Origin: a virus
IMG/VR virus record: IMGVR_UViG_3300007735_000573
Span: 1 to 28,454 of that record
DNA length: 28,454 nucleotides
Reading direction: 5' to 3' (one strand)
Shown here: positions 1,330-25,316 of the stretch, piece after piece
How positions within the stretch are numbered: the first letter of the stretch is position 1
Layout of the letters: every line of letters starts with the position of its first letter
The notes under the pieces: model-generated
Told to the model about the DNA's origin: nothing
Seen by the model: the letters and a program-made list of their open reading frames with translations, nothing else
The model's database searches: none
Made by a program: the position numbers and the translations under genes

Positions 1330-3294
1330 TTAAAGACACTTTCCTCTAATGTCTGTGTCTGGATATTTCACCTCGAACACGGCTGGGTCAATCGGAGGAT
1401 ATACTATCTTATGCTTTGTAGCAGCAACTAAATCATATTCACATGGAGAATAGTTTCCACCAACTAAATTCGTGAACTTCAAATCTGACACGGCCTGTAC
1501 GCCCTCAACCTTTGCAATCTCAAGTTCTAACTGACCTATATTGATCGGTTGAGAAAACTGCCAAAGTTCTATATCGAAAAACTTTTTAACAGCGGAAATA
1601 CAGTCGGCCAAAACTTCTTTTTTATTATAAGTAGAATAAGTCAGAACGGTAAAATCCACACCCACATTTACTATGAATCCGTCTATTATATTTACTCTAT
1701 CCGATATCATCCTATATTTTGAAATATACTTCTTCAGATTGTATACCAACGCTTCATTTACGGGGGTGAGGTTTTTATTATCATCGTAAGTCAAGACATA
1801 CAAATTTATTCCGAATGGATTTACGCCATCGAGATTAGCTTTTCTCAACCCAGCTTGAGTGGAATCTAGTATCAAATTGTGATTTTCATCCAATAATCCA
1901 TTTACAGACTGTATATTGTTGGAAGTCAGATCTGACTCGGTTGAAACGTATGCTTTAGAAACTCTTCCGTATTCGGCAGGCATACTCAACACTCTGGCTA
2001 CGTAATCTTCTTTAGTCACCATTCTGTCCTGGGAAGCAAAATTGGCCATAGCATTGTGTTTCATCTCCAAAATAGATTCGGACGAGGCTCCGCCTGTTGC
2101 AGGGATTGGATTTGACACACGCAGACTGCTTTTTACAGTATTTACCAAATTACTTTCTGCTGGCAGATACTCTACAGCATCATCGAATTCTATTTTGCTT
2201 ATAGATGTTATATCCCCAACGTTTGCATTTGACTCAATCCCGCCGCCAATGATATATTTAACCGATAAGGTCGTGTTAAATGGCGACGACCCATAAGAAT
2301 TGGATTTTACAAAACAGGTTGGATCCAGAGTAAGATTATATCTGGATACATTGGAGAATCCCACACCTAACAGTTCCGAGTTAGGTACTAATATCTCTTC
2401 CTCAAGACTGTCTGTAGATGAACCAAACTGAAGGAAGGTCTTATTATTCTCATCCACTTCGAGGATATATCTCCGATTTGTTCTTAGGAATTTTATTATG
2501 TTCGGCACGGTGGAACTATAGTCTGAATATTCTTCAAAATTAAACCGATTATTTTCTACCGGCAAATGAATCAAATCCTGAGCTAAAAAGTCAACCTGAT
2601 ACCAATCGTTATTATCGGAATCTTTCACCGAGACAATCTTTATTACGTTGTCCTCCGCCAATTCTATTCTCAGATTCGGAGTCTGGCTGGAAACAACAAA
2701 CTCTCTGGAAATAGTTTTTCCTGAGTAAGCCTTTACAGATTTCTTTATAAGATAGAATTCTGGTTCCCCTGCGGAATTTCTTGAAAAAACTTCGTCAACT
2801 CTCGGGTAAAGTTCGCTTTTTATAGAAAAATTTACAGTTTCGGATGTGATGAAAGACGTTCTGTTCGAGGACACCGCTTCCATTCCCTCCTTAACTATCA
2901 GAGCGTATCTAGTGTCCGGCTCAAATGTTCCGTCACTATTTCTCTTTGATGGGATTATTTGATATAAATCTAAAATTGTCGCAGAAGGTTTGCTTGGTCT
3001 GGGAGTATACCCCAAGAACTTTACAAGGTTTATCACATTCTTCCGTTCTTCCGCAAAATTTATAAGCCCCTCCTTGAACTGATAGTCTATGTAGAAAGAT
3101 AAAACGTCACCTACATACGATGCCATGTCTATGAACATCATTCCTGGAGAAGAGTTGTTGAAATCTTTGTAAGTTCTGGGATAATAGTGTTTTGCAAAAT
3201 CGATAAGATTTTCCTTTAACGCGTCAAAATCTTTGCCTAGGTATCTGATTTCCCTTGACAGAGGTTTGAAATTCTTATCTAATGTTGTTCCCAT
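1330..3294 (-). CDS. 6: Baseplate wedge protein, T4 gp6-like
   Basis: A 654-residue protein, close to T4 gp6 in length. The N-terminal part (about 12-100) carries the family signature of this baseplate wedge group: R-Y-L-G-K-D-F-D-A-L-K-x-N-L-I-D-F-A-K, then S-P-G-M-M-F-I-D-M-A-S-Y-V-G-D-V-L-S-F-Y-I-D-Y-Q-F. A proline-containing T-P-R-P-S-K-P-S-A segment follows. The C-terminal half has the baseplate-J-like core, including V-T-K-E-D-Y-V-A-R-V and V-D-F-T-V-L-T-Y. In T4, gp6 dimers tie neighbouring wedges into the baseplate ring around the hub. It is followed immediately by gp25-family partners upstream and the DNRLRE-like genes downstream. No Shine-Dalgarno sequence is seen, and the ATG lies 3 nt after the gp25 stop. 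Confidence 0.88.
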   Translation of the reverse strand: MGTTLDKNFKPLSREIRYLGKDFDALKENLIDFAKHYYPRTYKDFNNSSPGMMFIDMASYVGDVLSFYIDYQFKEGLINFAEERKNVINLVKFLGYTPRPSKPSATILDLYQIIPSKRNSDGTFEPDTRYALIVKEGMEAVSSNRTSFITSETVNFSIKSELYPRVDEVFSRNSAGEPEFYLIKKSVKAYSGKTISREFVVSSQTPNLRIELAEDNVIKIVSVKDSDNNDWYQVDFLAQDLIHLPVENNRFNFEEYSDYSSTVPNIIKFLRTNRRYILEVDENNKTFLQFGSSTDSLEEEILVPNSELLGVGFSNVSRYNLTLDPTCFVKSNSYGSSPFNTTLSVKYIIGGGIESNANVGDITSISKIEFDDAVEYLPAESNLVNTVKSSLRVSNPIPATGGASSESILEMKHNAMANFASQDRMVTKEDYVARVLSMPAEYGRVSKAYVSTESDLTSNNIQSVNGLLDENHNLILDSTQAGLRKANLDGVNPFGINLYVLTYDDNKNLTPVNEALVYNLKKYISKYRMISDRVNIIDGFIVNVGVDFTVLTYSTYNKKEVLADCISAVKKFFDIELWQFSQPINIGQLELEIAKVEGVQAVSDLKFTNLVGGNYSPCEYDLVAATKHKIVYPPIDPAVFEVKYPDTDIRGKCL

Positions 3295-3297
3295 AAT

Positions 3298-3717
3298 TTA
3301 AATCTTTATGTTCTCTAACTCAAAGTCGAGGGTGTCTCTCTGATCGGTTTGTATCACTGTAAATTCTAACGTTATCCTCAACTTATAATTATCATCGTTG
3401 GAAGAGTTTTCTGTGTTAATAATAGATATTTTATCCACACTGACTTCGGGTATCCAGAAAGAAATCTCCTCCCTCAGAAGATTCTTTACTATCTCGTTCA
3501 TATTCTCATCCTGTTGTTCAAATAAGACTGTGTATAATCTCGTTCCAAATTCCGGCATCATTCTCCGTTCACCCCTCCGCGTTTTTAAGAAGTTTGACAA
3601 ATTAGATTTCACCTGGGTATTGGTATCGAATGACTGTTGAAAATACCCACCAGGACCATTTACAATCGGCAATGTTATACCTATAGGGTATTTCGACGAT
3701 GTTATGTTGGATATCAT
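3298..3717 (-). CDS. 25: Baseplate wedge protein, T4 gp25-like
   Basis: A 139-residue protein, the usual size for gp25/GPW family proteins. The diagnostic block T-R-R-G-E-R-R-M-M-P-E-F-G (about residues 46-58) is followed by L-Y-T-V-L-F-E. Further on, I-V-K-N-L-L-R-E-E-I and W-I-P-E-V-S-V match the rest of the family fold. gp25 sits in the inner baseplate next to the sheath-initiating region in T4 and has counterparts in type VI secretion (TssE). The gene lies between an unknown 143-residue protein, whose stop codon it overlaps by one base, and the gp6-like gene, so the wedge genes are co-transcribed. Confidence 0.9.
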   Translation of the reverse strand: MISNITSSKYPIGITLPIVNGPGGYFQQSFDTNTQVKSNLSNFLKTRRGERRMMPEFGTRLYTVLFEQQDENMNEIVKNLLREEISFWIPEVSVDKISIINTENSSNDDNYKLRITLEFTVIQTDQRDTLDFELENIKI

Positions 3718-7536: not shown

Positions 7537-7665
7537 TTAATTCTTAAACAGTCTGGAAAAATAATCGTGACGTCTCCGTTTCGATGTAACATTACTATTC
7601 GGTTTACTAATTGTCAAATTCTTTTTTAAGATATTTTCTTCAATCGAAATATATTTGTCCGTTAA
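7537..7665 (-). other. Open -1 frame extension after an A10 run (possible programmed frameshift or broken C-terminus)
   Basis: Directly after the run of ten A on the coding strand (7666-7675), the -1 frame stays open for 42 codons to a TAA at 7537. It encodes a plausible hydrophilic tail (start L-T-D-K-Y-I-S-I-E-E-N, end Y-F-S-R-L-F-K-N) and has no ATG or GTG of its own. The zero frame stops at 7662. Slippage on the A run would join the two. Alternatives are a sequencing or assembly length error in the homopolymer, or a recent natural frameshift. Confidence 0.45.
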
Positions 7666-8462
7666 TTTTTTTTTTCTCCTAACTGTTCTTGATCCGCTGT
7701 ATTATATGCTAACAATAGACATATAGCCAATGGGTCAAACACGGTTATAATCAACACGATGAACCACTTGACCACCTTATCCATAGAAATTCCCGCCTCG
7801 TCGGCAACGAACTTAAAAGTTATTATATCATTCTTACCCATCTCGGACAACTTCAATTCTGATATGGATTTGTTCACCGCATCGATATCTTGATATGCGG
7901 CTTCCATCTTTTTGTTTTCCGATTCTATATTAGATTCACTCCTTGTTATCAACTCTACTGTCTGAGTCTGTAGTTCCTGTAATTGTATCGGGTTTCTTGC
8001 AATCATAGAATTCGTCATGGTCTGACCCATCCGCAGTTCTTGTGCAGCTCTCAAGTCATTTATGGTTACTATCCTAGATTTCGACAGATCTATCTTTTTG
8101 TTTATATCAGACCGTTTAGACTCCAACAGTGAAATCTTCTCCAAAGATAACTTATTATCAAGTGAAGAACGTTGATAAGAAGCGGTCAAATACCCAAAAA
8201 TTCCCAACGATGTTATGAACATCAGAACCAAAACGCTGAGTGTTAGGTATATTTTTAGATAGTTTTTTGTGGCTTTCCAATATTTAAACAGATAACTTGT
8301 TGACACAAGTTTTCCGAGTTCCAACGAAGCAGCCATCACCATCGCCGATTCTTTTGAACCGGAGAAAAGCATGGCTATACCTATAATTGAGAAATACGCG
8401 GCTACGGAGGCTATAAAAATTGACGTAGAAGCGACTAACTGTTTAAATGTGAAATTGTGCAT
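7662..8462 (-). CDS. Membrane coiled-coil protein
   Basis: A 266-residue protein. Hydrophobic segments are visible at about 12-33, 70-91 and 233-254, with a long Lys/Glu/Ser-rich coiled-coil region (about 95-215) between the second and third. Near the C-terminus, V-F-D-P-L-A-I-C-L-L-L-A-Y-N recalls conserved phage membrane proteins of unknown role. The stop comes right after a run of ten A, and a 42-codon -1 frame extension follows. A late-type box lies 10 nt before the ATG. A host-envelope function is inferred from the membrane topology only. Confidence 0.75.
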   Translation of the reverse strand: MHNFTFKQLVASTSIFIASVAAYFSIIGIAMLFSGSKESAMVMAASLELGKLVSTSYLFKYWKATKNYLKIYLTLSVLVLMFITSLGIFGYLTASYQRSSLDNKLSLEKISLLESKRSDINKKIDLSKSRIVTINDLRAAQELRMGQTMTNSMIARNPIQLQELQTQTVELITRSESNIESENKKMEAAYQDIDAVNKSISELKLSEMGKNDIITFKFVADEAGISMDKVVKWFIVLIITVFDPLAICLLLAYNTADQEQLGEKKN

Positions 8463-8472
8463 ACTGTATCAC

Positions 8473-8480
8473 TATAAATA
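8473..8480 (-). promoter_or_regulatory. Late-type promoter box TATTTATA
   Basis: TATTTATA on the coding strand, 10 nt before the ATG at 8462. Confidence 0.5.
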
Positions 8481-8507
8481 TCAACACAGTGTCGGAAACT
8501 CTTGAAT

Positions 8508-9173
8508 CTAAAAGGATTTTTGTTCTCGTTTCCACGCATCATATTCCGAACGACAGGCCAAATAATCGCCCGCATGAATCACTCTAGGAAGATTTGTTTT
8601 CAACTCATTGTCTGGGTTGTAACTCTTTAAGTAGGAAGAAGCCGCTTCGTGGTAAAGACCGTCCGACAATTTAATCGCCAACGTTTCTTTCCATGTGCAA
8701 ACAATCTGGTGTTGTTGGAGGATATACAACGCCCTATCCGTGACATCCATATACTGGAGATTTGGGTTAAACTTAAATATTTCTCCTCGATTTTTTTTGT
8801 GCCATTCGCTGTCTTGTGTAAGATAATACTCCCCTTGTTGTAAATCGCCCAATTTACCCAGATCGTGATGTATCGCGGAAAATACCAACTCTTCATCCGT
8901 GAAATCTATGGTAGCACCCATTGCTTCCCACAGTTTCTTTGTTCCAACGGCGGCCCGATACACGTTCATAATGTGGTCAATATACCCACCAACATAGGCA
9001 TTGTGGAAGTGTGCCTTTGCGGAAGCTGGGGCCATAACCAACCTCACTCCATATGCATCTTCCGAATAGAGTTTACGGAGTCTATCTAACCTTTCTCCTG
9101 AAAAGGTCTTTTCGACCAAGGCCATAAATTTATCGTAGAGTTTTTGAAGATCCGTCTCTGAGTATTCTTTCAT
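8508..9173 (-). CDS. HD-domain phosphohydrolase-like protein
   Basis: A 221-residue protein. HD-superfamily ligands are visible: His55 and His57 (A-H-F-H-N-A-Y), His67, the H-H-D triad at 102-104 (F-S-A-I-H-H-D-L-G-K-L-G-D), and a later acidic residue in K-L-S-D-G. HD proteins are metal-dependent phosphohydrolases acting on nucleotides or cyclic nucleotides. The true substrate here is unknown. In a phage, nucleotide-pool salvage or destruction of a host signalling nucleotide are both possible. It stands alone between a 57-residue gene and the membrane protein, without a clear late box. Confidence 0.78.
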   Translation of the reverse strand: MKEYSETDLQKLYDKFMALVEKTFSGERLDRLRKLYSEDAYGVRLVMAPASAKAHFHNAYVGGYIDHIMNVYRAAVGTKKLWEAMGATIDFTDEELVFSAIHHDLGKLGDLQQGEYYLTQDSEWHKKNRGEIFKFNPNLQYMDVTDRALYILQQHQIVCTWKETLAIKLSDGLYHEAASSYLKSYNPDNELKTNLPRVIHAGDYLACRSEYDAWKREQKSF

Positions 9174-9209
9174 TTAAGAATGATATACTGATAAACTGTA
9201 GATACAAGT

Positions 9210-9383
9210 TTATTTACTTCGGATGTAATCTACTAACTTAATACACTCGTCCGCTTTACTGTTTATCTTCGCCATGTCGAGATTTCCCGACTTAGCATAC
9301 GGTAAAGATATAGAAAGTATCTCTTCGAGATTTTTTCTAATCGAATCCTCAACAGTTTCGTTCACTTGAATAGAGTCGCTCAT
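9210..9383 (-). CDS. 57-residue unknown helical protein
   Basis: I prefer the internal ATG at 9383 (M-S-D-S-I-Q-V-N-E-T) over the upstream in-frame ATG at 9410, because a TACTTATA box lies 9 nt before it. The product is 57 residues, helical and acidic, without motifs. Its first 35 nt overlap the end of the GT8-like gene in another frame. Function unknown. Confidence 0.5.
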   Translation of the reverse strand: MSDSIQVNETVEDSIRKNLEEILSISLPYAKSGNLDMAKINSKADECIKLVDYIRSK

Positions 9384-10050
9384 AATCGTATCTATAAGTA
9401 TCGAATACATCAGAATATTCTACATTTTTATGTGTAGGGAGCCACGGGCCTCCTTCTGTGAAGTGTAGTCCTAAAGGTTTTCCATCGTTCGGTTCTTTAT
9501 ACCATCCGACCAACCAATTCCATTGAATCGGTATCGAACCGATGTCATCCTCTTCTAAAAATTTCAATTGGTGGAGAAATGCGCCTGATTGGCCGTTAAT
9601 TGTATCTGGAGATAACGTTTTTATTTTTGGATGTTCGTTATTGAAAATCATCAAACTGCTCCAGTTCTTTTTTGGAAACCTGGTTTGAATTTTTCCACCC
9701 ATTTTAGTTTCATTTATTGGGTTATAATTGTGTTTACAGCACATCACCGCGAATCGGTCATCATACAATTCGACCAAATCATAGATGTCTTTTAGAAAAA
9801 CAAAATCTCCGTCCACGAATATAGAAACCCCACGGAACTCTGAACAGTGTGGTACGAAAAATCGTGCAAAAGAAAAATCAGTGGATTCTGTTGGGTCGTC
9901 CGCACGTCTATAACTTTCGACGGTATATTTGTTTATGGGTCTAATATTGACTCTATATCGTGCGTGAGTTTCTATACTAAATTTACAAACCTCATACGCA
10001 ATCGGGTGTGCTGAGTCTAATCCTATAAATACGTTAAAGTTCTTTCTCAT
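9349..10050 (-). CDS. GT8-like glycosyltransferase
   Basis: A 233-residue protein from the ATG at 10050. A longer in-frame start at 10131 would lie deep inside the preceding gene. The start M-R-K-N-F-N-V-F-I-G-L-D-S opens a GT-A fold. The metal/nucleotide-sugar D-x-D motif is F-V-D-G-D-F-V-F (D80, D82). Near the C-terminus, G-L-H-F-T-E-G-G-P-W-L matches the H-F-T-x-G-G-P-W element of GT8-like enzymes. The enzyme would transfer a sugar from a nucleotide-sugar donor; donor and acceptor are unknown. It overlaps the radical SAM gene by 17 nt, suggesting joint expression within a modification cassette. Confidence 0.72.
   Translation of the reverse strand: MRKNFNVFIGLDSAHPIAYEVCKFSIETHARYRVNIRPINKYTVESYRRADDPTESTDFSFARFFVPHCSEFRGVSIFVDGDFVFLKDIYDLVELYDDRFAVMCCKHNYNPINETKMGGKIQTRFPKKNWSSLMIFNNEHPKIKTLSPDTINGQSGAFLHQLKFLEEDDIGSIPIQWNWLVGWYKEPNDGKPLGLHFTEGGPWLPTHKNVEYSDVFDTYRYDYERLYSSERNC
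9393..9400 (-). promoter_or_regulatory. Late-type promoter box TACTTATA
   Basis: TACTTATA on the coding strand, 9 nt before the preferred ATG at 9383, inside the end of the GT8-like gene. Confidence 0.42.
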
Positions 10051-10891
10051 AAAATAGATCTGCCAAATTTTTTCCCACCTTCTCACCGTGAATGTTGCAG
10101 ACGTTACATGGAGACAATATCCTTTTTCCAAGCATCAAAGTATCTCTATATGAACCGAGTTTCTCTGAGTTCCATATTTCAGATAAAGTGTGAGTGTTTA
10201 TGTTCAATTCGCTTCTACTCTTTCTCCCCCAATCTTCACAACATACGAGAACGTCACCATTCCAATCTATCACGAGCTTATAGAACGGCAAATAACATTT
10301 ATTGTATTTGAATTCGGATATTTTGTCAGAATTTACTGACACGAATCCTGCACGGTTAGTGAATCCGACGGGATTTTTATCCCCATAAGAGATTCTCAAC
10401 GTATAGTCATCATCAGCATACCCACGGAACAGATTTTTGAACTTTTCCAAAGATTCCTCGCCATCATAAACGCTTACTATTATGTGATTTATGCCAGCGG
10501 AGTAGATCTGTTCTATCAGATTCGGTGTGAGCCTATCTCCGTTGGTGTTGATTTCGTGAACCGACAAATCCGGATTAGCTTGTGACACAAACCCTACGTG
10601 TTCCAAGAAATTTTCTGTAAGCAACGGTTCTCCGTTCCCAGACCAGCCGAGTCGGCCACTGTATCCAAATTCGGTAAGTCTCTTTGACAACGAACTAACT
10701 GTTTCAATAGATATGTGTAAATTTTGATTGGGATACTTCTTAGCATCTGAACGTGGACAAAACCCGCACGTTCTATTACACAGCTCAGTTGGGTTCACCG
10801 TTATGCTCTGCAAACATCCATTGACCTCATCGGTATGTTTTATCTGAGAGTTCCTCAAAACAACTACATCGGATTTTGATTTTGCTATCAT
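10034..10891 (-). CDS. Radical SAM protein with SPASM-type C-terminus
   Basis: A 285-residue protein from the ATG at 10891, which overlaps the upstream stop in an ATGA junction. Iron-sulfur cysteines follow the radical SAM pattern C-x3-C-x2-C (E-L-C-N-R-T-C-G-F-C at C38, C42, C45). Then come a G-N-G-E-P-L element and E-I-N-T-N-G, both typical of SAM binding. The C-terminal part has F-Y-K-L-V-I-D-W-N-G-D-V-L-V-C-C-E-D-W-G and a final C-N-V-C, as in SPASM domains that bind extra clusters. Known relatives modify peptides, sugars or cofactors. Sitting between two glycosyltransferase-like genes, it probably alters a sugar or a glycosylated target. The substrate is unknown. Confidence 0.82.
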   Translation of the reverse strand: MIAKSKSDVVVLRNSQIKHTDEVNGCLQSITVNPTELCNRTCGFCPRSDAKKYPNQNLHISIETVSSLSKRLTEFGYSGRLGWSGNGEPLLTENFLEHVGFVSQANPDLSVHEINTNGDRLTPNLIEQIYSAGINHIIVSVYDGEESLEKFKNLFRGYADDDYTLRISYGDKNPVGFTNRAGFVSVNSDKISEFKYNKCYLPFYKLVIDWNGDVLVCCEDWGRKSRSELNINTHTLSEIWNSEKLGSYRDTLMLGKRILSPCNVCNIHGEKVGKNLADLFYEKEL

Positions 10892-11772
10892 TGGGTCAGA
10901 AAGTTGAATTTTTTCTGTAAAACTACGAACATATCGAAGTAGTTGCTCATAAAAATGTCTTTGTCGAAAATATGTTTGGTGTATCTGATTGAATTGAAAA
11001 AACACGTTTCGCTTGGAATCCCCTTGTATTTTTCCCGTATCTCTCCGTAATACTTGCTGTGTAAAAAGTCGTTAGTCACAAAGTTGGTCTTAGAACAGAG
11101 CCAGATGTCATCCAATACGCTTTTCATATCACCCTTCTCCCTGTGATATAGCGGGCGATAGTGATTCCTGACCGGTCTTTCTGTGGAATATTTGTTGGAA
11201 AAGAAATCGACCATCTGTTTACATCCTCCTACGAAAACAAGAGACTGTGGATTGAACTCTTTTATATATTTTTCGACAACAAAATCTGTTATTTCTATAT
11301 CTACATCAACGTTCAATAGACTCTTATTCTTGACGTGAAACGTGGTCAGTTTTTCAGAAACGTTCGGCTGAGCGCCGATGAGAATTTTCAATTCTATACT
11401 ATCTGTCTGGATGGGATGAACTTTCGGGAACCATTCGTAAAAAAGTAAAGTGTCGCCCGACAGTGCTTCTGGAACAACTCTTGTCAATGTCCCCTTCCGT
11501 CCGGTCTTAGATAAAAATCTCGAAAGGATGAATGCCTCAAATTTGTTGGAGGTATCGTTCTTTAATGCACGGAACATTTCTACCGGTATGCCGCTGAAAA
11601 AATCAGAATATATTCTCAACTCTATATCTGAGTTTATAGACAGTGGAATGAGAGCATCGTTGTAAACCGTTAAATCGGCTCCAAGTTTCTTTGCCACAAC
11701 ATAACTTTTTAACAACGTCATAAGATTGGTGGTGACACCAAAATAATCCTGTGATATGTTATGTAAGGTCAT
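10888..11772 (-). CDS. Possible fucosyltransferase-like GT-B protein
   Basis: A 294-residue protein. The N-terminus (V-T-T-N-L-M-T-L-L-K-S-Y-V-V-A-K-K-L-G-A) resembles the G-x-x-N-L ... A-x-x-L-A-x-x-L-G start of fucosyltransferase-like GT-B enzymes. The later part has Q-S-L-V-F-V-G-G-C-K-Q-M and then D-M-K-S-V-L-D-D-I-W-L-C-S-K-T-N-F, comparable to the donor-binding half, where D-x-x-x-L-S-x-x-D-x-x-V is common. The usual H-x-R-R-x-D is not evident, so activity is uncertain. Its stop overlaps the radical SAM start. It is divergent from the plus-strand gene at 11790. Confidence 0.42.
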   Translation of the reverse strand: MTLHNISQDYFGVTTNLMTLLKSYVVAKKLGADLTVYNDALIPLSINSDIELRIYSDFFSGIPVEMFRALKNDTSNKFEAFILSRFLSKTGRKGTLTRVVPEALSGDTLLFYEWFPKVHPIQTDSIELKILIGAQPNVSEKLTTFHVKNKSLLNVDVDIEITDFVVEKYIKEFNPQSLVFVGGCKQMVDFFSNKYSTERPVRNHYRPLYHREKGDMKSVLDDIWLCSKTNFVTNDFLHSKYYGEIREKYKGIPSETCFFNSIRYTKHIFDKDIFMSNYFDMFVVLQKKFNFLTQ

Positions 11773-11789
11773 AGATATACCATATTAAC

Positions 11790-12308
11790 GTGTTTCACAT
11801 AAAAGACAACATTTATCTGTCAGACAAAGATTTTTTATTGGATGAACGAAACCAATCTAATTTAATACAAAGTGACATAAAGAGGATACTAATATGCACC
11901 GAGTATATTGACGGTGAGATAATAAAGAACGAGTCATTGTGCCGTTTCTTATCGGCTTCAAGAATTTCTATTGATTGGGTATTTGACACACAGAGGCTCA
12001 TTCACGAAACAAGATTTAAGATGAAGGGAACGGAGGAATTCAATAAAATACGTAATGCACTTCGATGTAATTCTATCAAAACCACCAGGATTTTCAAAGA
12101 TTTGGCGGATTTTAACGGAAATATTCTGTTAGTGTGCAACAAGATGAATAAAATGTCTCCTGTATTCTGTCTATTGATTGAAAACTTAAAAACGGAGAGA
12201 TCTTCCAATTACATACTGGACTCTTTACCAGAGAGTTCTAAGGACGAAACCTCAAAAATCAGAACCACTCGGATTTTGGAATGTTATAATATGTTGAAAT
12301 CGGTATGA
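11790..12308 (+). CDS. Degenerate dual-specificity phosphatase-like protein
   Basis: A 172-residue protein with a GTG start, on the strand opposite its neighbours. The opening (I-Y-L-S-D-K-D-F-L-L ... L-I-Q-S-D-I-K-R-I-L-I-C) resembles the L-Y-L-G ... L-x-x-x-G-I-x-x-V-L start of dual-specificity phosphatases. Further on, I-L-L-V-C-N-K-M-N-K-M-S-P-V-F sits where V-L-V-H-C-x5-R-S should be: Cys is kept, but His is Val and the catalytic Arg is Met. If the relationship is right, this is a pseudophosphatase. The match is by eye and weak. It is followed 20 nt later by the oxygenase gene. Confidence 0.4.
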   Translation: MFHIKDNIYLSDKDFLLDERNQSNLIQSDIKRILICTEYIDGEIIKNESLCRFLSASRISIDWVFDTQRLIHETRFKMKGTEEFNKIRNALRCNSIKTTRIFKDLADFNGNILLVCNKMNKMSPVFCLLIENLKTERSSNYILDSLPESSKDETSKIRTTRILECYNMLKSV

Positions 12309-12328
12309 TTCCATGACATATTTGAACC

Positions 12329-12928
12329 ATGAGGTTTAGGTCTATAAAATTGTGGAAGGATCCGTTCCAACACTACACGTTTTCTCGGTTTTTTTCTCCC
12401 GTAGAGCTGGCAGACTACAAGTTCGTGGACCCTCACGGAGAAAACGGAAACCAACTCAACCAGACCAGAACCAGCAGTAAACGAAGAATCTTTATTGATG
12501 ACGAATTGTGTGAAAAACACAAAATTTACTCAAAACTTCGAGCCTTTTTCTCGTCGGAAGACACCCTCCGTCTGTTTGAATCATATATCGGAGCGCGTGC
12601 TCCAGAGTATCTCCGTATGGAAATCATAAAAGATGTTGGAGAGTCTTGGTTAGAACCTCACTGTGACATAAAAGAGAAATACCTGAGTCTGTTAATATTC
12701 ATTAACGATGTTGGCGAGGATGAAAACTTAGGAACCGACCTATATTCTTCCGAGTTAGTGGTCAAGAAGACGGTTCCATTCGTGGATAACACCGGATACT
12801 TTTTTTATCCTGGAGATAACACATGGCACGGTCTGGAACGGAGAAAAATTAAGACGCACAGAAAGATTCTTATGGTGAATTATGTGACTTTTAAGACCGA
12901 AATTCAACTTCCTCTAAGAGTTCCATGA
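12329..12928 (+). CDS. 2-oxoglutarate/Fe(II)-dependent oxygenase-like protein
   Basis: A 199-residue protein. Iron ligands fit the H-x-D ... H pattern: H111-C-D113 in L-E-P-H-C-D-I-K-E-K, and His167 in N-T-W-H-G-L-E. The 2-oxoglutarate-binding Arg is probably R178 in H-R-K-I-L-M-V-N-Y-V. The strand F-F-Y-P-G-D-N-T-W-H-G is typical of prolyl-hydroxylase-type double-stranded beta-helix proteins. Such enzymes hydroxylate protein side chains, sugars or nucleobases. Between glycosyltransferases, a sugar or fibre-protein substrate is plausible. The gene converges on the 300-residue minus-strand gene, with 25 nt of tail-to-tail overlap. Confidence 0.75.
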   Translation: MRFRSIKLWKDPFQHYTFSRFFSPVELADYKFVDPHGENGNQLNQTRTSSKRRIFIDDELCEKHKIYSKLRAFFSSEDTLRLFESYIGARAPEYLRMEIIKDVGESWLEPHCDIKEKYLSLLIFINDVGEDENLGTDLYSSELVVKKTVPFVDNTGYFFYPGDNTWHGLERRKIKTHRKILMVNYVTFKTEIQLPLRVP

Positions 12929-13806
12929 GACTTAAAAAACTGGACCAACACGTCAAACTTTTCTGCCTTTCCGGCTCTAAATAACGTGTATCCAGGACGT
13001 ATTCCGTCTAAACAAAACTCTCGTACCAACAGTTCTAACGGAACAAACTCGGTGTTCACACAGTTCTGTAAATCAACCATCACTGACAAAGAATTTCCTC
13101 TCGACAAACTCCCACCCTCTCGTAAAGACACCTTAGATTCCACTCCGACTTCTTGAAATGGAACACCAAAATGGGAACAAACGGTGTATTTCATTTCATT
13201 GTTTCCAGAGACGAAAAATGGAGTTTTTCCTGGGTTTACACTCAAAAATTTTGTAATTGCGTTTATCCAATATCTCCTTTCCATATCAAACTGTTCCGGT
13301 GTACTTGTTTTTAGATTGAACGATACGACGTCTAATGTAGGGGAACGATATTTGTATTCATCTGTTATTATTGGGTCAAACCTAAACGGTTCTATTATCT
13401 GTGAGAGGGATTTTTCGTAACCAACAGCACCATCATTGTAGTCGAGAAGGATTGTCTGGTTTTCCTTCAACGATACATTTGAAATGTTTCCGAACCGATA
13501 AACAAGTTCCCCTTTTATAGAAAACGGATACCACTTCTGAATGAATTCCTTGTATAAATCGGTGTAACTCTCACCTGCATCCAATCTCGCGCGTTCATTG
13601 AAAATGTGTTTTTGAGAACAGTTGTAATCGGGGAAAGAAACTATGTCTAAGTCAATGTCATCAAACCTCAGAATTAAGTTTTTCTCTGTTTCTAAACATG
13701 GAAAAATCAAATTAATAGAGTTCTTCTTACAGAAATCATAAGTTATGATGAACTTTAGAAGGTTTCCAGAAAGGCCGGTGTTTTTGACCGAGAAAAGTTG
13801 GTTCAT
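12904..13806 (-). CDS. Possible GT-B (fucosyltransferase-like) protein
   Basis: A 300-residue protein. The start resembles the 294-residue neighbour: S-G-N-L-L-K-F-I-I-T-Y-D-F-C-K-K-N recalls the G-N-x-L ... A x x L A K K opening of fucosyltransferase-like enzymes. Around residues 165-220, W-I-N-A-I-T-K-F-L ... T-P-F-F-V-S-G-N-N-E-M-K resembles the donor domain (F-x-x-S-x-D-x-x). The signature H-x-R-R-G-D is missing (F-N-L-K-T-S in its place). The start codon overlaps the stop of the sialyltransferase-like gene by 4 nt, so the two are probably coupled. The assignment is tentative. Confidence 0.4.
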   Translation of the reverse strand: MNQLFSVKNTGLSGNLLKFIITYDFCKKNSINLIFPCLETEKNLILRFDDIDLDIVSFPDYNCSQKHIFNERARLDAGESYTDLYKEFIQKWYPFSIKGELVYRFGNISNVSLKENQTILLDYNDGAVGYEKSLSQIIEPFRFDPIITDEYKYRSPTLDVVSFNLKTSTPEQFDMERRYWINAITKFLSVNPGKTPFFVSGNNEMKYTVCSHFGVPFQEVGVESKVSLREGGSLSRGNSLSVMVDLQNCVNTEFVPLELLVREFCLDGIRPGYTLFRAGKAEKFDVLVQFFKSHGTLRGS

Positions 13807-14402
13807 AGAGCTCTGAGTTTCCCCTTTTTTAAAAGAATCGAATGTAAAGCACGTTCGTATGAATATGGATGACGATTCTTGATGTCTCTGTTATGACTTT
13901 GTTTCCAATACCAACCGGTTTTAAAAAAGTCGAACCCATACGTATAAATCTCAGATTCTTTGAAGTGCTTCATAACAAGTCTTATTGCTCTATAACCAAG
14001 ACTCGGATTTATCAACGACAGATCTATGCTCAACGGACCCATCTCTTTATAAGACTCTATTATATCCAAGGCATCTTGACGGTTCATAAAGTGAACGAGA
14101 TTTTCCTTTTGTCTGTCATCCAATAAGGATAATATCTCTCCCTTCACGGTTTCTATTTTGTTATCATCATAGTATTCATTGAAAACTGGAAAAGTAACAA
14201 ACGTTTTTGTTTTTCGGAGCCTCTCGGTGTTAAGCTTCCAATGAGCCGTTATACAGTAGTCTGTTTTTGTGCCAACGTTTTTTTCAAATCCACCCAGTTC
14301 ATATGTTCCAAGTCTAACAACGGTGTCAAACGCATCAATTTGGTCCCCGAGAGTTCTATCTAATACTTCACAACCGTTTCCTATTAATACAAGCTTTCTC
14401 AT
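13803..14402 (-). CDS. Sialyltransferase-like (GT29-type) protein
   Basis: A 199-residue protein, shorter than animal GT29 enzymes, which carry a stem. The large sialyl motif is clear: L-I-G-N-G-C-E-V-L, G-D-Q-I-D-A-F-D-T-V-V-R-L-G-T-Y, then G-G-F-E-K-N-V-G-T-K-T-D (residues 5-48). A small-motif equivalent is N-P-S-L-G-Y-R-A-I (132-140) ... I-Y-T-Y-G-F-D-F-F. The terminal H178-P-Y-S-Y-E183 fits the H-x4-E motif, whose His is catalytic in GT29. It would add sialic acid or a related nonulosonic acid from a CMP donor. It overlaps both neighbours by 4 nt. Confidence 0.72.
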   Translation of the reverse strand: MRKLVLIGNGCEVLDRTLGDQIDAFDTVVRLGTYELGGFEKNVGTKTDYCITAHWKLNTERLRKTKTFVTFPVFNEYYDDNKIETVKGEILSLLDDRQKENLVHFMNRQDALDIIESYKEMGPLSIDLSLINPSLGYRAIRLVMKHFKESEIYTYGFDFFKTGWYWKQSHNRDIKNRHPYSYERALHSILLKKGKLRAL

Positions 14403-15103
14403 CCGTCTTTTAGAGCAACCCTTGGTTGGAGATAATACGGCGACGGATTTATTAAAGATGGCCAGTAGTTCTGGAGTTTTCCGGGAGGAATGTTACGTAT
14501 TCCCTTCAAAAAATCTCCCACATTTCGGTGTATATCATCCACAATGGGCCTCGCATCTTCTCCTAAGTTTCTGTTCATATCCTCTATTACCATATCCATC
14601 TTTTTATTTATTACACAGCTGTAGTTCTTATACAGTTCCGATAAATCCGAATCCGATATTGAATGGATATGTTTAAATCTGTCGAAATATACCTTATCGA
14701 ATTCTTGAGGAGAACTGTAGCCCATGAAATCCATTATTCTTATATAGTTTATGTTCATCCCTTCGATAAAAATAAGGCGTATCACATCCACGGAAGTCAA
14801 TCTAAAAAGGGGTTCTGATAGTATGGGCAAAAGCGTAGAACCTATAAAACTCAAAGTGATCTTCATAGATTCCTCGTAATTTCCCATGGAAAATATCTCC
14901 ACATTAAAAACCTCCGATATAGGGAAAGAATCTATTTCTTTCGTAAGAAGGTTTTTAAGAGATAACGTTCTATCATTCACCTCGAAAAAATTTTCGACTC
15001 CTCTATCATATGGGATCGAATAAATCACCCCATTTCTATTTATTTTAAGGAATCCACAATTATTCTCAAGTGTCTTGATAAGCCACTTTTCAAATGTAAC
15101 CAT
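14399..15103 (-). CDS. Unknown protein between tail fibre and glycan cassette
   Basis: A 234-residue protein with no recognised domain. A beta-rich N-terminal half (G-V-I-Y-S-I-P-Y-D) leads into helices (L-S-E-P-L-F-R-L-T-S-V-D-V-I-R-L-I-F) and a proline-rich end. It is first in an ATGA-coupled run with the sialyltransferase-like gene and sits right after the fibre stop. It has a variant late-type box 4 nt before the ATG. Fibre assembly or modification is possible but unsupported. Confidence 0.65.
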   Translation of the reverse strand: MVTFEKWLIKTLENNCGFLKINRNGVIYSIPYDRGVENFFEVNDRTLSLKNLLTKEIDSFPISEVFNVEIFSMGNYEESMKITLSFIGSTLLPILSEPLFRLTSVDVIRLIFIEGMNINYIRIMDFMGYSSPQEFDKVYFDRFKHIHSISDSDLSELYKNYSCVINKKMDMVIEDMNRNLGEDARPIVDDIHRNVGDFLKGIRNIPPGKLQNYWPSLINPSPYYLQPRVALKDG

Positions 15104-15107
15104 ATTC

Positions 15108-15115
15108 TATAACTT
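15108..15115 (-). promoter_or_regulatory. Variant late-type box AAGTTATA
   Basis: AAGTTATA then GAAT and the ATG at 15103. It has the same 4-nt spacing as the boxes before 622 and 6162, but the first bases differ. Confidence 0.3.
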
Positions 15116-16574
15116 ATGTTTTAATCAAATATCTGAAAGCATACAAGTGTCCGGAACTTGTTATAACGGAGTTTGTTGGATTTAAATTCTCTGGAATACT
15201 CCCCGAATGATTCACGCTCGGTATAAAAAATGATGACGAGAAAACCCTCGATGTCTCTACGAATCCACTATCGTTATAACCCATGAACTGTAAAGTTTGG
15301 TTGGATTGTCTCAGAGAGGATGTAATCATATCGTTATAAGATCCGCTATAACGAACTACGCTGCAGGTGAAAGATTGTCCGTCCGGCAAAAGAAGTCTTG
15401 CGGGAACTTGATGGGTTATACTAGCAGGAGAAGATTGTCTTAAATATCCATCAGAAGTTTGGTCTGTAATATTTTCAGTGACAGAGAACCTTGAACTATA
15501 TGCTACATTTGAGGACGGGGTGAACGTCAGCGATGTATGCGGTCCAAGAGATAAGGCTTGAGTGATATTCGTTCCCTGTATATGGACACTTGCAGTATAT
15601 GTAAGCGTGTCTCCTGTATTTTGTTCTGTTATTATAAATTTATATTGTGCGGCGCCGAGGCCGGTGAATGATACCGTTGGGACTCCTTCTCTTAAAACCT
15701 GTGAAGAACCGCTACCACCTGCTTTCAGAGCGGTTATTGTATATATACCTCTTATGGGCGACAAGGATTGGGTGGTGAACGTCACTACCCCAGAGCTTAA
15801 AGCGTGTCCATATATGTTTACATCGTCGTGATCTATAAAACAATACATCGGTTGAGTTATAGTCGTTCTCGACGCTGATATTACCAACTCTGGGTAAAAA
15901 CCAAATTTGTTTCCAACTACATTGTATAGATTTTGATATGAGTTTACGAATACATCCCGACCGTTACATACTAAATAATTCCCAGTTCCTTCTATGGCCG
16001 ATGTATCCATCCCTGCATATAAAACCATATATCCGGTTTCTATACCATTTGCAGAGTAGTTTGACTTAGAAGCCGTCAATGCGTGACTCGAACTTAGTGC
16101 ATAGCTGCTGGAATAAGCAAATACTCCTGACCCCGATGCGGAGCTCGCCGATATTGAATACGAAGCGCTCAGTGAAGTCGAACCGCTTAGAGAAAAACTG
16201 CTAGATAATGAGTATGAACTGGATAATGCGAATATACCTGATCCGGATGCAAAACTCGCTGTAAGAGAATATGATGAGGAGGCGGCGTAACTGCTGCTAA
16301 ACGCATATATTCCGCTTCCGCTTCCTGCCATAGAAAAGCTAGAAGTCAGGCTGGATGAAGCCCAACTGCTACTAAGTATTCTATCGGAGACAGATGATGT
16401 GAGGGAGTAACTTGCAGACTCCACAGATGCAGATGCAGCGATCACCGTAGAAAGATACCCCCAAGTTACGCTCTTAGATTCTGAAATAGGTGCCACGTCT
16501 TGGATCAAAAACAAATCTTCATTTGATATTTGACCATCGATACTGTTGAGTTCGGATATTCTCTTGTTTGCCAT
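15114..16574 (-). CDS. Tail fibre/collar protein with Ser-rich repeats
   Basis: A 486-residue protein. Residues 5-45 (I-S-E-L-N-S-I ... D-L-F-L-I-Q-D) form a short N-terminal attachment segment that also starts the next fibre. Residues 50-170 are extremely Ser-rich, with three near-repeats of G-S-G-[IV]-[FY]-A-x-S-S-S-Y. Residues 180-225 match the phage tail-collar pattern: G-Y-M-V-L-Y-A-G-M, then Y-L-V-C-N-G-R-D-V and Y-Q-N-L-Y-N-V-V-G-N-K-F-G. The remainder is beta-rich, with Ig-like strands (T-F-T-P-S-S-N-V-A-Y). It is probably a receptor-recognition fibre. It starts 9 nt after a late-type box. Confidence 0.8.
   Translation of the reverse strand: MANKRISELNSIDGQISNEDLFLIQDVAPISESKSVTWGYLSTVIAASASVESASYSLTSSVSDRILSSSWASSSLTSSFSMAGSGSGIYAFSSSYAASSSYSLTASFASGSGIFALSSSYSLSSSFSLSGSTSLSASYSISASSASGSGVFAYSSSYALSSSHALTASKSNYSANGIETGYMVLYAGMDTSAIEGTGNYLVCNGRDVFVNSYQNLYNVVGNKFGFYPELVISASRTTITQPMYCFIDHDDVNIYGHALSSGVVTFTTQSLSPIRGIYTITALKAGGSGSSQVLREGVPTVSFTGLGAAQYKFIITEQNTGDTLTYTASVHIQGTNITQALSLGPHTSLTFTPSSNVAYSSRFSVTENITDQTSDGYLRQSSPASITHQVPARLLLPDGQSFTCSVVRYSGSYNDMITSSLRQSNQTLQFMGYNDSGFVETSRVFSSSFFIPSVNHSGSIPENLNPTNSVITSSGHLYAFRYLIKT
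16065..16319 (-). repeat. Three Ser-rich protein repeats inside the tail fibre
   Basis: Codons 86-170 of the 486-residue fibre encode three related blocks beginning G-S-G-I-Y-A-F, G-S-G-I-F-A-L and G-S-G-V-F-A-Y, each followed by S-S-S-Y and alternating Ser/Ala/Leu. They may form a repetitive shaft. The density of Ser makes them possible O-glycosylation sites. Confidence 0.6.
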
Positions 16575-16583
16575 GTGTCTCTA

Positions 16584-16591
16584 AATAAGTA
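16584..16591 (-). promoter_or_regulatory. Late-type promoter box TACTTATT
   Basis: TACTTATT on the coding strand, 9 nt before the ATG of the 486-residue fibre. Confidence 0.5.
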
Positions 16592-16600
16592 TGTTGTAGA

Positions 16601-17827
16601 TTATCGTTTTATGTTGTAATAAAACGCGCTTCCAGATGGACCCATATCTGTCCCATACACTATCCCTTCTGAATATGTTCCGATTATAGTTCCGGTGCCA
16701 TATGATTGACTTATTTGAGTATTGGTAGGGTGCCCGAGGATTGACGCCGAAATGTAATTTTGTTTATTATAAGGACCTGAACCAGAATAAAAGTTTGAAG
16801 AAATTTTTGGCAATCTATTGGAAACCATACCATCGGTGAATTTATTGCCTATAGAAGAAGACAAGTCGGTGTAAGAGGTAGAATAACTCCTCCCATTGCA
16901 GTCATACCACGCATTAGATCCCGTGACTCTAATTCCGGCATACAATAATATCATTCCTGGCAAAGGCCCATTTGAAGATGTCAATGATATGGAACTTCGA
17001 TCAGAATAAAAAGAAGCGCTATTTATTGAAGACGATATCGAAAACGTACCGGATCCGCTTGAATTGAGTGTAAACTCTGCAGCTGAAGAGCTTACTACAT
17101 TTCCAAAATTTGATGAATGACTTGCGTTTAAATTAAAACTCGATGATATAGATGTTACACCTAATCCCGAAGCATACTGTGCACCACCGGCAGAATGATA
17201 CATAAACTCACCGTATCTAATAGTCGGTGGGTTGTTATACGTTATCGTTGCCGAGAATTTCAAAACTTTCTCACTCGAATCTAACTTCGATACTTCAAAT
17301 TCGTATACTCGTGCCGGAAGACCAAAATAACTTATTACACCCGACGTAGGACTTATGATTCTTGACCCGATTATATCCGCATGACTCGTTGGTTTTAAAA
17401 CATAAGAATTTGCAAATGGACTTCTTGGTTTTACGGTTATGCTTCCGCCAGCATTTGGAATGGTGTAGATATTTAAGGTATCGTCGCTCGCGGTTATCTC
17501 AAACAAATCAAAATTCGTGAAACACTGACTAACGGAAAAAGCATAACTACTTGACCAAGCAAATGAATTTGGTCCACTCAAATTTAAAGTATAATAAGAA
17601 GAAGATACCCGTAAAGATACACTACATGAGGGTGTAGTCCCCGCCGTAAATGAGCTCGTCAATGCGTAACTTGAAGATAAAAATGTGGTCCCATCAATCG
17701 CATCCGACAAATCCCCCAATGATACTGTGTGGGTGGTAAGTTTACTTCTATCGACGACCACGAATAAATCCGCAGAGTCGATGGAACTGCTTATCGAAGT
17801 TAAATTATGGATCTGGCGATTTGACAT
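16601..17827 (-). CDS. Tail fibre/collar protein, paralogue of the 486-residue fibre
   Basis: A 408-residue protein. The N-terminus (I-H-N-L-T-S-I-S ... A-D-L-F-V-V-V-D) parallels that of the other fibre (I-S-E-L-N-S-I ... D-L-F-L-I-Q-D). Ser-rich stretches with S-S-S-Y-A-L-T-S-S occur at 50-60 and 230-280. A tail-collar motif lies near the C-terminus: L-P-G-M-I-L-L-Y-A-G-I, then W-Y-D-C-N-G-R-S-Y and Y-T-D-L-S-S-S-I-G-N-K-F. The C-terminal Gly/Ser/Tyr-rich end probably forms the receptor-binding tip. It is the first of the two fibre genes and has its own late-type box. Confidence 0.8.
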   Translation of the reverse strand: MSNRQIHNLTSISSSIDSADLFVVVDRSKLTTHTVSLGDLSDAIDGTTFLSSSYALTSSFTAGTTPSCSVSLRVSSSYYTLNLSGPNSFAWSSSYAFSVSQCFTNFDLFEITASDDTLNIYTIPNAGGSITVKPRSPFANSYVLKPTSHADIIGSRIISPTSGVISYFGLPARVYEFEVSKLDSSEKVLKFSATITYNNPPTIRYGEFMYHSAGGAQYASGLGVTSISSSFNLNASHSSNFGNVVSSSAAEFTLNSSGSGTFSISSSINSASFYSDRSSISLTSSNGPLPGMILLYAGIRVTGSNAWYDCNGRSYSTSYTDLSSSIGNKFTDGMVSNRLPKISSNFYSGSGPYNKQNYISASILGHPTNTQISQSYGTGTIIGTYSEGIVYGTDMGPSGSAFYYNIKR

Positions 17828-23964: not shown

Positions 23965-24395
23965 AATTTGCCCCTGGTTTTTTTGAGAAACCGCTTGGAA
24001 AAGACAAAAATCCACCCAGGAAAACGTCATATAAGACACATAGGATGTCTAAATAACTCTTATACGTCACCCAAGACGTAAAAAAACATCCAAAACCGAC
24101 AAGAATCTCCCCAGAGAAAAAATGCCGTGTGTTTGCCCAGCGAAAATGAGGTAAAAAAGATAATTTGACCACAAGAAAACACGCTTGCGCGAAAAGAAAC
24201 GCCCCATAGAAAAAAATGCCGTGTGTGTTGCGCCACTGTCCGCGTCACCCCGGTGGGGGGTACCGTCATATTCAGAAGTAAGCCCCCTTTTTGACAGGGG
24301 TTCCACCCCCAGTATGGGGGGGAAGCCGTCATTTTAAGGGGTTACCTGGGGTGGGTAGGGGGTTTGTCTGGGCTTATGGAGTTTATTATAGAATG
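23965..24395. repeat. Non-coding region with dispersed CCCAnnGAAA motifs and a direct repeat
   Basis: At least six related short motifs are visible on the plus strand: GCCCAAGGA (23952), ACCCAGGA (24014), ACCCAAGA (24069), CCCCAGAGAAAA (24109), GCCCAGCGAAAA (24135) and CCCCATAGAAAA (24202). An 18-19 nt direct repeat, ending in AATGCCGTGTGT, occurs at 24115-24132 and 24208-24226. Short frames on the minus strand here have repetitive Phe-rich products and look spurious. The end of the region is G-tract rich. A replication origin, regulator-binding array or packaging element are the options. Confidence 0.5.
24348..24372 (+). other. Potential G-quadruplex tract
   Basis: GGGG, T, GGG, TA, GGGGG, TTTGTCT, GGG in 25 nt meets the four-run G-quadruplex pattern. 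Nearby CCCCGGTGGGG (around 24248-24258) and ACCCCCAGTATGGGGGGG could form hairpins. Confidence 0.5.
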
Positions 24396-24656: not shown

Positions 24657-24665
24657 TGTGCGATT

Positions 24666-24694: not shown

Positions 24695-24701
24695 GCCTCT
24701 C

Positions 24702-25013: not shown

Positions 25014-25019
25014 GGTTAA

Positions 25020-25306: not shown

Positions 25307-25316
25307 GTCCCCACAA

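Follow-up and report, generated by a model that had tools for sequence, protein, structure and literature searches.

What does a phage make with a block of glycosyltransferase-like and other enzyme genes, and on which target is the product placed? The question is raised by the window (the whole stretch of DNA analysed, IMGVR_UViG_3300007735_000573, positions 1 to 28,454), in which such a block lies at 9349-15103 next to genes of fibre-like proteins. The original prediction had described eight genes there and had named the Ser-rich fibre, a capsid decoration and host surface sugars as possible targets; all eight genes were found. Our best explanation, to which we would give an even chance, is a self-contained, co-inherited cassette which builds a ulosonate-containing glycan, oxidised by a radical SAM enzyme, and attaches it to a protein of the virion, with the product of the upstream fibre gene as the most likely acceptor.

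Organization and conservation of the cassette

The block is preceded by two fibre-like genes of the minus strand, fib2 (16601..17827) and the Ser-rich fib1 (15114..16574), whose product is the candidate acceptor. Coupling of the minus-strand genes by ATGA overlaps is seen at three junctions (14399-14402, 13803-13806 and 10888-10891), but the genes of the radical SAM enzyme (rSAM) and of the GT8-like protein, with likely ATG start codons at 10891 and 10050, respectively, share a 17-base overlap instead. The gene of the 2OG-like protein and that of the GT-B protein FTb are convergent and overlap by 25 bases. Scans for late promoters (TATAAATA and CTAAATA) and sigma-70 promoters gave no clear excess over shuffled sequences; TATAAATA was found at 4 sites, and 16 of 100 shuffles contained as many. 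Hydropathy gives no sign of a membrane span in any of the eight proteins (the top 19-residue value is 1.43 vs 2.7 for the membrane protein encoded at 7662-8462).

The block is a set conserved among uncultured tailed phages beyond chance. All 13 contigs found by the rSAM protein alone also encode U234, GT29, the 2OG-like protein and the FT family. The GT29 alignment found 15 contigs, partly the same ones, and each of them has the core set. The pairwise identities of rSAM, GT29, GT8 and 2OG-like proteins rank alike (Spearman 0.70-0.92 over 78 non-independent pairs). DNA-level relatives were found in no named phage.

GT29 protein and its putative donor sugar

The assignment of the protein encoded at 13803..14402 (minus strand) to the GT29 sialyltransferase family is confirmed by Pfam (PF00777, E 1.1e-9, 38.6 bits vs cut-off 23; 41.9 bits for the homologue in L012). 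Its profile retrieves ST3Gal1, ST6GalNAc2 and ST6Gal1 from the PDB (E 6.5e-5 to 8e-3), the region of sialylmotif L being aligned with ST6GalNAc2 and ST3Gal1. H178-x4-E183, which we take to be the His-x4-Glu of motif VS, is invariant in all 11 aligned relatives. The only relative in named phages comes from one uncultured phage record.

Donors of GT29 enzymes are CMP-activated acidic sugars, and for this reason a Kdo-like donor is our best guess for the phage protein, a putative user of CMP-sugars. In PMC11288761 the plant GT29 protein RCKT1/MGP2 is reported, as putative, to be a CMP-Kdo transferase. The plant protein resembles the phage one in family and in this putative donor, but its acceptor is pectin; the phage protein, with its mere 199 aa, is devoid of a membrane span. 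Bacterial GT29 genes were reported from Gram-negative marine bacteria (PMC5811610).

Two versions of the cassette contain a CMP-Kdo synthetase-like KdsB gene (L015 and L046; 2 of 19 cassette contigs, 2 of 18 cassette records). Both proteins exceed the cut-off of NF003952, the model of one curated CMP-Kdo synthetase subfamily (247.7 and 229.9 bits vs 193), but fall short of the stricter TIGR00466 (143.9 and 129.2 vs 155.2) and also miss NF003948 and NF009905. An aminotransferase and a HAD phosphatase lie beside both; since these companions are the same in both, the two insertions may be non-independent. The aminotransferase, where present, is HisC/CobD-like, with scores below the cut-offs of those models. 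Neither KdsB nor a class I aminotransferase occurs in the 5 records of lineage A, to which the window belongs (all of them apparent fragments). Nothing was found by the cassette-family profiles when the search was extended by 11.6 kb in the sister record of the window and by 19.3 kb in the record of L008.

Fucosyltransferase-fold proteins

FTb (12904..13806, minus strand) and FTa (10888..11772, minus strand) had been proposed as possible fucosyltransferase-like GT-B proteins. Sequence-family searches and profile searches against the PDB gave no convincing match for either, and the fold was recovered from the AlphaFold model of FTb (pLDDT 88). The top 15 rows of VIA-align for this model are NodZ, POFUT2, FUT1, POFUT1 and FUT8 (Z 8.8-11.2, the next group being at 7.6), with NodZ 3siw as the best match (Z 11.2, 216 residues, 4.1 A); the best Foldseek E was 1.7e-3. 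Among the rows listed none is a GT29 or GT8 protein, which is uninformative either way. FTa and FTb belong to one family by iterated profile search, with nothing found by pairwise BLAST. Thus, judging by the model, FTb is predicted to have a GT-B fold nearest to the NodZ/POFUT/FUT8 superfamily, and FTa is joined to it by profile; fucose as the sugar is left unclaimed. The HxRR-type motif, presumably the donor motif of this superfamily, is not evident by eye in the FT alignment, which contains no aligned NodZ sequence.

Radical SAM enzyme

The protein encoded at 10034..10891 (minus strand) was predicted to be a SPASM radical SAM protein. PF13186 (3e-11) and PF04055 (5e-8), both above cut-off, agree with this, but the protein is BtrN-like with one auxiliary cluster, i.e. 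of twitch type. BtrN is an aminocyclitol dehydrogenase of butirosin biosynthesis. BtrN 4m7t is matched over the full length (E 6.6e-25): C38, C42 and C45 (CxxxCxxC) align with the radical-cluster Cys16, Cys20 and Cys23 of BtrN, and C199, C217, C262 and C265 with Cys169, Cys187, Cys232 and Cys235 of its auxiliary cluster, as counted by eye on the alignment. These seven cysteines are invariant in all 11 relatives, and Arg152 of BtrN is aligned too. As a BtrN-type dehydrogenase the phage enzyme would be expected to carry out a two-electron oxidation of a sugar alcohol or cyclitol; its partner aminotransferase, where present, is, unlike that of BtrN, HisC/CobD-like.

Bacterial relatives of rSAM are found among sugar genes. 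In L119 it adjoins a GT29 gene and an aminotransferase (in the 146 genomes of this genus GT29 occurs in 2 and rSAM in 1), and in L122 it lies directly downstream of a KpsF-type isomerase. In Paraglaciecola mesophila (L127) a protein with 36% identity is encoded with sugar genes in a flagellin/Maf island, a site of surface-protein glycosylation. This island resembles the cassette in having a BtrN-like rSAM beside a surface-filament protein; it differs in being bacterial, in its Maf-type transferase and in belonging to a genome with no GT29 match. Four rSAM-bearing bacterial genomes were checked for GT29, which is present in two and adjacent in one. A GT29 gene read by eye in a Mesorhizobium prophage-like locus (L129:10873-12108) was rejected, its product having no Pfam or NCBIfam family and the genome no PF00777 match. 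Distant viral relatives of the cassette encode an amidinotransferase, which in the PDB matches inosamine-phosphate amidinotransferase best, with SxtG scoring almost as well; an NCBIfam scan of the amidinotransferases of Campylobacter phage CP20 and L150 returned no family.

GT8-like, 2OG-like and phosphatase-like proteins

The product of 9349..10050 (minus strand) is named only GT8-like, since its PF01501 score is below cut-off (E 8e-4, 19.5 bits vs 24.3). Its Asp-x-Asp is invariant in 12 of 12 sequences, consistent with a GT-A glycosyltransferase, and phrog_28018, a family with no function assigned, is matched at 2e-49. A relative is encoded in 498 stretches of viral contigs, and 56 of the 80 loci kept, many of which are short contigs, have no other cassette match.

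The proposed 2OG-Fe(II) oxygenase (12329..12928, plus strand) is similarly called 2OG-like only, with PF13640 below cut-off (E 0.16, 13.4 bits vs 27). What speaks for the family is a profile of 11 relatives, which matches the prolyl 4-hydroxylase-domain chain 9ei6 (E 1.4e-4), and the putative HxD...H triad (H111-x-D113 and H167) together with the 2OG-binding Arg (R178), all invariant in 11 of 11. None of its relatives is in a named phage.

The small protein PPaseL (11790..12308, plus strand), encoded in 11 of 19 contigs, resembles a degenerate dual-specificity phosphatase. Its C116 is invariant (9 of 9), but the Arg six residues on, which would complete the Cys-x5-Arg active loop of these enzymes, is absent, and no family or PDB match was convincing; the proposal of a degenerate phosphatase is unproven.

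U234 and the genes upstream

U234 (14399..15103, minus strand), the uncharacterised protein heading the cassette, has a small beta N-terminal domain, a helical C-terminal part and the end motif WP[ST]L[LI]NPSP[FY], in which W214, P215, L217, N219, P220, S221 and P222 are invariant (12 of 12). All 14 confirmed loci with this motif are cassette contigs. The model of U234 is weak (pLDDT 65), and nothing in the viral fold library resembles it at E 0.001 or better. L210, where rSAM, GT8 and aminotransferase genes are present and GT29 is absent, also shows a weak similarity to U234 (2e-6).

A place beside fibre genes, or genes in the fibre position, is seen in related phages as well. In all 18 non-edge cassette contigs U234 is present and stands directly behind, and on the same strand as, a gene of one of three upstream families (lineage A 5/5, B 10/10, C 3/3), the gap being 7-200 bases and at most 43 in 17 of them. 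In lineage C, the member in L046 carries the tail-fibre domain of T4 gp36 (PF03903, 33.5 bits vs cut-off 26), and the gene after the block there matches structural, head-decoration and minor-tail families. No known family is matched by the upstream gene of lineage B. In lineage A the upstream gene is fib1 (5 of 5 contigs), with baseplate genes nearby. Both fib1 and fib2 match PF07484 (Phage Tail Collar) below cut-off (E 5e-4 and 1.4e-4) and are rich in Ser (21.8% and 21.1%). fib1 is 61-72% identical in 4 aligned relatives; against the PDB its alignment found no relative, with one chance-level row (E 0.29).

The Ser-rich fibre had been suggested as a target. Ser makes up 19-23% of the upstream gene products in lineage A, against 7-12% in those of B and C. 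Another gene of the window, at 2-622, has 19.8% Ser too. By these contents, the idea of a Ser-rich fibre as the acceptor throughout the lineages was rejected.

Proposed mechanism and alternatives

For the explanation given at the outset we infer the donor, the order of steps, the role of U234 and, above all, the target as follows. The FT-fold glycosyltransferases and the GT8-like enzyme would act in the cytoplasm, where they start or build a short glycan on the fibre. GT29 would then add a CMP-activated acidic sugar of ulosonate type (Kdo or Kdo-like), drawn from the pool of the host or, in the relatives that have it, supplied via the phage KdsB-like enzyme. The BtrN-like rSAM would by oxidation turn a hydroxyl of a sugar, or of the precursor of that sugar, into a ketone, and the aminotransferase, where present, may convert this to an amine. 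The 2OG-like protein may hydroxylate the acceptor or the sugar, and U234 may tether the enzymes to the fibre.

It is unlikely that the cassette instead works on LPS precursors via the CMP-Kdo pool and thereby changes the surface sugars of the infected host, so as to mask receptors or exclude superinfection. Kdo is an ordinary LPS sugar, and the two KdsB-bearing versions would fit, as would the Gram-negative origin of the reported bacterial GT29 genes and an acceptor protein that is only a candidate. What lowers the probability of this target of the original prediction is the lack of a membrane span in all eight proteins, which leaves the cassette with no flippase, polymerase or membrane glycosyltransferase; the constant place behind fibre-position genes in three lineages and the bacterial rSAM beside flagellin and Maf also argue against it.

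With similarly low probability, another virion part (capsid, tube or baseplate) or U234 itself is modified, the fibre being merely a neighbour. The invariable presence of U234 and the three different upstream families with their unlike Ser contents suit this, and virion glycosylation has precedent in mycobacteriophages Che8, Corndog and Myrna (Freeman et al. 2023 via PMC12619734 and PMC12363180), where the excerpts name capsid and tail-tube proteins as targets. The fixed position directly behind the fibre-position gene stands against it, and so does the poor conservation of U234 (18-24% identity between lineages A and B).

A small soluble compound or a hypermodified nucleic acid (an aminocyclitol-like metabolite or a sugar-modified base) is a quite improbable product. 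BtrN as the best rSAM match and the amidinotransferase of the distant relatives point to the former, and phage glycosyltransferases modifying DNA (Pyle 2024, as quoted in PMC12619734) to the latter; but no base-modification family is among the matches of the cassette proteins, the tail-gene setting is constant, and the presence of several glycosyltransferases that differ in fold speaks rather for an oligosaccharide attached to a macromolecule.

That the genes are a loose set with no joint function is scarcely credible: in T4-like phages the regions beside the fibre genes are plastic and hold many genes, the GT8-like family mostly occurs alone and, between L009 and the window, rSAM shows 58% identity vs 77% for GT29 and 80% for 2OG, but searches with single members retrieve the whole core, which contradicts such a set, and the identities rank alike.

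Relation to known systems

The proposed cassette, deduced from genes alone, resembles the mycobacteriophage system in that phage-encoded glycosyltransferases would act on the phage's own structural proteins. Unlike that system, for which the excerpts name glycosyltransferases as the genes, it is placed after a fibre-position gene and contains in addition GT29, the BtrN-like rSAM, the 2OG-like protein and, in two versions, a KdsB-like enzyme. Such a gene set in phages was undescribed among the full-text matches listed, in which subscription journals are thinly covered.

An unexplained "interchangeable module" including radical SAM genes was described in Campylobacter phages CP220/CPt10 (Timms 2010, PMC2853527), and the CP20 stretch is laid out like that of CPt10. 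Three gene families are common to this module and the distant viral relatives of the cassette: the BtrN-like rSAM of CP20 matches L153 (1e-27) and the prophage-like L195 (2e-30), its amidinotransferase the viral L210 (2e-20) and its PLP enzyme the viral L197 (2e-12). The CP20/CPt10 stretches (30.8 kb) have no GT29, FT, 2OG, GT8 or U234 match, and the window cassette, unlike the module, has neither the PLP enzyme nor the amidinotransferase. Tentatively, one may think of a widespread and so far unrecognised phage system in which BtrN-type rSAM, PLP enzymes and, in some cases, amidinotransferases or CMP-Kdo synthesis would yield oxidised, aminated or guanidinylated acidic sugars on tail fibres, the Campylobacter modules being another branch. 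We know of no radical SAM step in a described virion decoration.

If our explanation is true, phages would themselves encode the means to place an unusual acidic glycan on the organelle with which they contact the host, a kind of virus decoration which is hardly explored. The radical SAM genes of T4-like phages, remarked on as odd in 2010 (PMC2853527), would also gain a testable function, and short GT29 enzymes as well as BtrN-like catalysts could be drawn from these phages.

Organization of the region

The window, which is the entire virus record (28,454 bases), represents part of a myovirus tail region. The cassette (9349-15103) sits between baseplate wedge genes (1330-3717) and a group formed by PhoH (17855) and two fibre-like genes whose Collar matches are weak (15114-17827). 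The cassette members listed in the original prediction are borne out at this place. The genes are tightly packed: three junctions are formed by ATGA, one neighbouring pair overlaps by 17 bases, and a convergent pair overlaps by 25.

Several other features of the window were observed. In lineage A, the contig group closest to the window, the cassette is directly followed by the gene of a metal-dependent phosphohydrolase-like protein (8508-9173, minus strand; phrog_28876 at 4.7e-7, phrog_5889 of unknown function at 2.4e-9). Relatives of the membrane protein encoded at 7662-8462 are also located near rSAM genes in viral contigs L161, L162, L163 and L196. A full-length tmRNA gene is present on this phage contig (20141-20523, minus strand; Rfam RF00023, 122.4 bits; predicted tag AKNVIAYDFTPEGVEAEYAVA). 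A third Ser-rich protein (19.8% Ser; 2-622, minus strand), distant from the cassette, is truncated by the contig end. At about 24000-28454 the GC content goes up from 0.35-0.42 to 0.44-0.48 (1-kb steps) and plus-strand open frames are commoner than before; no PHROG function was found for the five open frames scanned there.

Cassette proteins

GT29 passes its Pfam cut-off, its profile matches vertebrate sialyltransferases in the PDB, and its His-x4-Glu pair is invariant (11/11 aligned). The radical SAM protein (rSAM) passes both Pfam cut-offs. Its nearest solved structure is BtrN, matched over the full length with E 6.6e-25 (the runner-up is NifB, 9e-7). In the alignment with BtrN, the Cys residues of both clusters (three of the radical cluster, four of the auxiliary one) are matched, and so is Arg152, a residue with a role in BtrN. 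BtrN oxidises 2-deoxy-scyllo-inosamine and has a single auxiliary cluster bound by four Cys, according to an excerpt of PMC9012708. FTa and FTb belong to one family, and FTb, as modelled, has the fold of the fucosyltransferase superfamily. The GT8-like and 2OG-like proteins are below their own Pfam cut-offs and are supported by profile, motif and conservation; of the matches proposed originally, those of GT29 and rSAM held above the cut-offs, and that of the GT8-like protein did not. The description of PPaseL as a phosphatase-like protein is a guess. U234, the protein at the head of the cassette, gave no family match in the searches run and no significant fold match; its most conserved part is the C-terminal motif WP[ST]L[LI]NPSP[FY].

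Conservation of the cassette

As judged from gene content, the cassette is a genuine unit. Scans of viral contigs with the rSAM protein and with the GT29 alignment yielded 13 and 15 contigs, respectively (the two sets overlap), all with U234, GT29, FT, 2OG, rSAM and GT8. Among the 19 contigs taken as cassette contigs, rSAM is found in 19 and U234, GT29, FT, 2OG and GT8 in 18 each; the contig with the most genes missing starts within the region, and the one without GT8 stops ahead of this gene. Less frequent in these contigs are PPaseL (11/19), an aminotransferase (5/19), KdsB (2/19) and a HAD phosphatase (2/19).

Lineage A comprises five contigs near-syntenic with the window, one of them 100% identical at the cassette proteins. 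In lineage B (10 contigs) the cassette is flanked by different genes, and PhoH is 48-50% identical in the six loci where it was seen. Lineage C comprises four contigs, an edge fragment counted. The gene immediately before U234 belongs to one family per lineage (A 5/5, B 10/10, C 3/3): the Collar-like fib1 in A, a family without match in B, and a long protein in C, which has 1,359 aa in L046, where its match to the T4 gp36 tail-fibre domain exceeds the cut-off. In 18/18 contigs of the three lineages the cassette lies behind a gene that is fibre-like or occupies the fibre position.

The cassette genes show a similar ranking of pairwise identities. It is possible that single genes are swapped, because in contig L009 rSAM (8001-8852) is 58% identical to that of the window, with GT29 at 77%, 2OG at 80% and GT8 at 71% (FTa 62%, FTb 65%, HD 91%); this rSAM may be a single-gene replacement. 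In wider scans 56/80 GT8-like loci are without any other cassette match, and most distant rSAM loci are without GT29.

Donor sugar

Taken together, KdsB-like genes, a further cytidylyltransferase, bacterial loci and a plant GT29 suggest that the donor is Kdo or a similar sugar. KdsB-like proteins are encoded in one contig of lineage B (L015) and one of lineage C (L046). They score 247.7 and 229.9 bits with NF003952 (CMP-Kdo synthetase subfamily; cut-off 193) and fall short of stricter models (TIGR00466: 143.9 and 129.2 versus 155.2). Each has a HAD phosphatase gene and one for a HisC/CobD-like PLP enzyme beside it, and with the same companions the two sets may have a common origin. In L197 the further cytidylyltransferase is flanked by rSAM and aminotransferase; it is nearest to PseF, with a score far under the PseF cut-off. 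Bradyrhizobium nitroreducens has the order aminotransferase, rSAM, GT29, with GT29 directly after rSAM, and its opposite strand carries a stretch resembling the isomerase KdsD, which scores below cut-off. Among 146 Bradyrhizobium genomes rSAM was found in 1 and GT29 in 2; B. nitroreducens had been chosen for its rSAM. The gene immediately before rSAM in a Flavobacteriales MAG encodes a KpsF-type isomerase that scores above cut-off. For the plant GT29, a putative role as the CMP-Kdo transferase has been reported (excerpt of PMC11288761). No KdsB was seen in 16 of 18 cassette records, which means that these cassettes would need to draw the donor from a host pool or from genes outside the fragment.

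Probable target of the proposed modification

The target is probably a virion protein. In favour of this, the cassette consistently follows a gene that is fibre-like or in the fibre position, no membrane span was found in its proteins, a bacterial rSAM relative lies inside a flagellin/Maf island (L127, Paraglaciecola mesophila), and in a prophage-like Mesorhizobium loti locus (L129) aminotransferase and rSAM come shortly after the genes for terminase and a DUF4055 protein. Both L129 and the prophage-like L195 combine rSAM with an aminotransferase and a methyltransferase-like gene.

For the fibre itself as the target the chances are about even. The Ser-rich region of the fibre proposed originally as a possible target is confined to lineage A (19-23% Ser in the gene before U234 versus 7-12% in lineages B and C). 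This and the lack of a family match for the lineage B neighbour weaken the specific assignment.

Related modules in other phages

By the patterns used, rSAM relatives were found in 106 stretches of viral contigs, of which 80 were analysed (one virus may count more than once). A GT8-like gene is also present in 35 of these 80 loci, and aminotransferase matches occur in 23 loci with one model and in 5 with another. Large sugar modules lie behind fibre-position genes in L150, L153, L210 and L055. As read by eye (rSAM, GT8 and PLP by profile; family models for L150 only), they contain rSAM, a PLP enzyme, GT8-like, epimerase, PIG-L deacetylase, DegT aminotransferase and an additional gene matching the amidinotransferase of Campylobacter phage CP20. 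In L150 the deacetylase, DegT aminotransferase and NAD epimerase are above cut-off; its amidinotransferase, the one of the four searched against the PDB, best matches inosamine-phosphate amidinotransferase (E 2.9e-45), with SxtG a near tie (1.9e-44). Pelagibacter phage Mosig, an isolated phage, carries a different sugar cassette (7943-13777), in which a GT8-like relative accompanies methyltransferases, a putative sulfotransferase and another GT.

At about 10,200-17,300 Campylobacter phages CP20 and CPt10 have a cluster in which an amidinotransferase and a PLP enzyme accompany radical SAM genes, five of them according to the CPt10 annotation. The amidinotransferase, rSAM and PLP enzyme families of the CP20 module also occur among the viral loci described here. 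Timms et al. (2010) called the CP220/CPt10 modules "interchangeable" and named metabolic fitness as a possible benefit (excerpt of PMC2853527). We infer that this old puzzle is tied to sugar chemistry.

The 2018 report of bacterial GT29 does not contain the word "virus" in its main text (PMC5811610). A phage set of this kind is not described among the full-text literature matches listed. In mycobacteriophages, phage GTs are known to glycosylate the virion (excerpts via PMC12619734 and PMC12363180), and the cassette as proposed here would resemble these systems in this respect.
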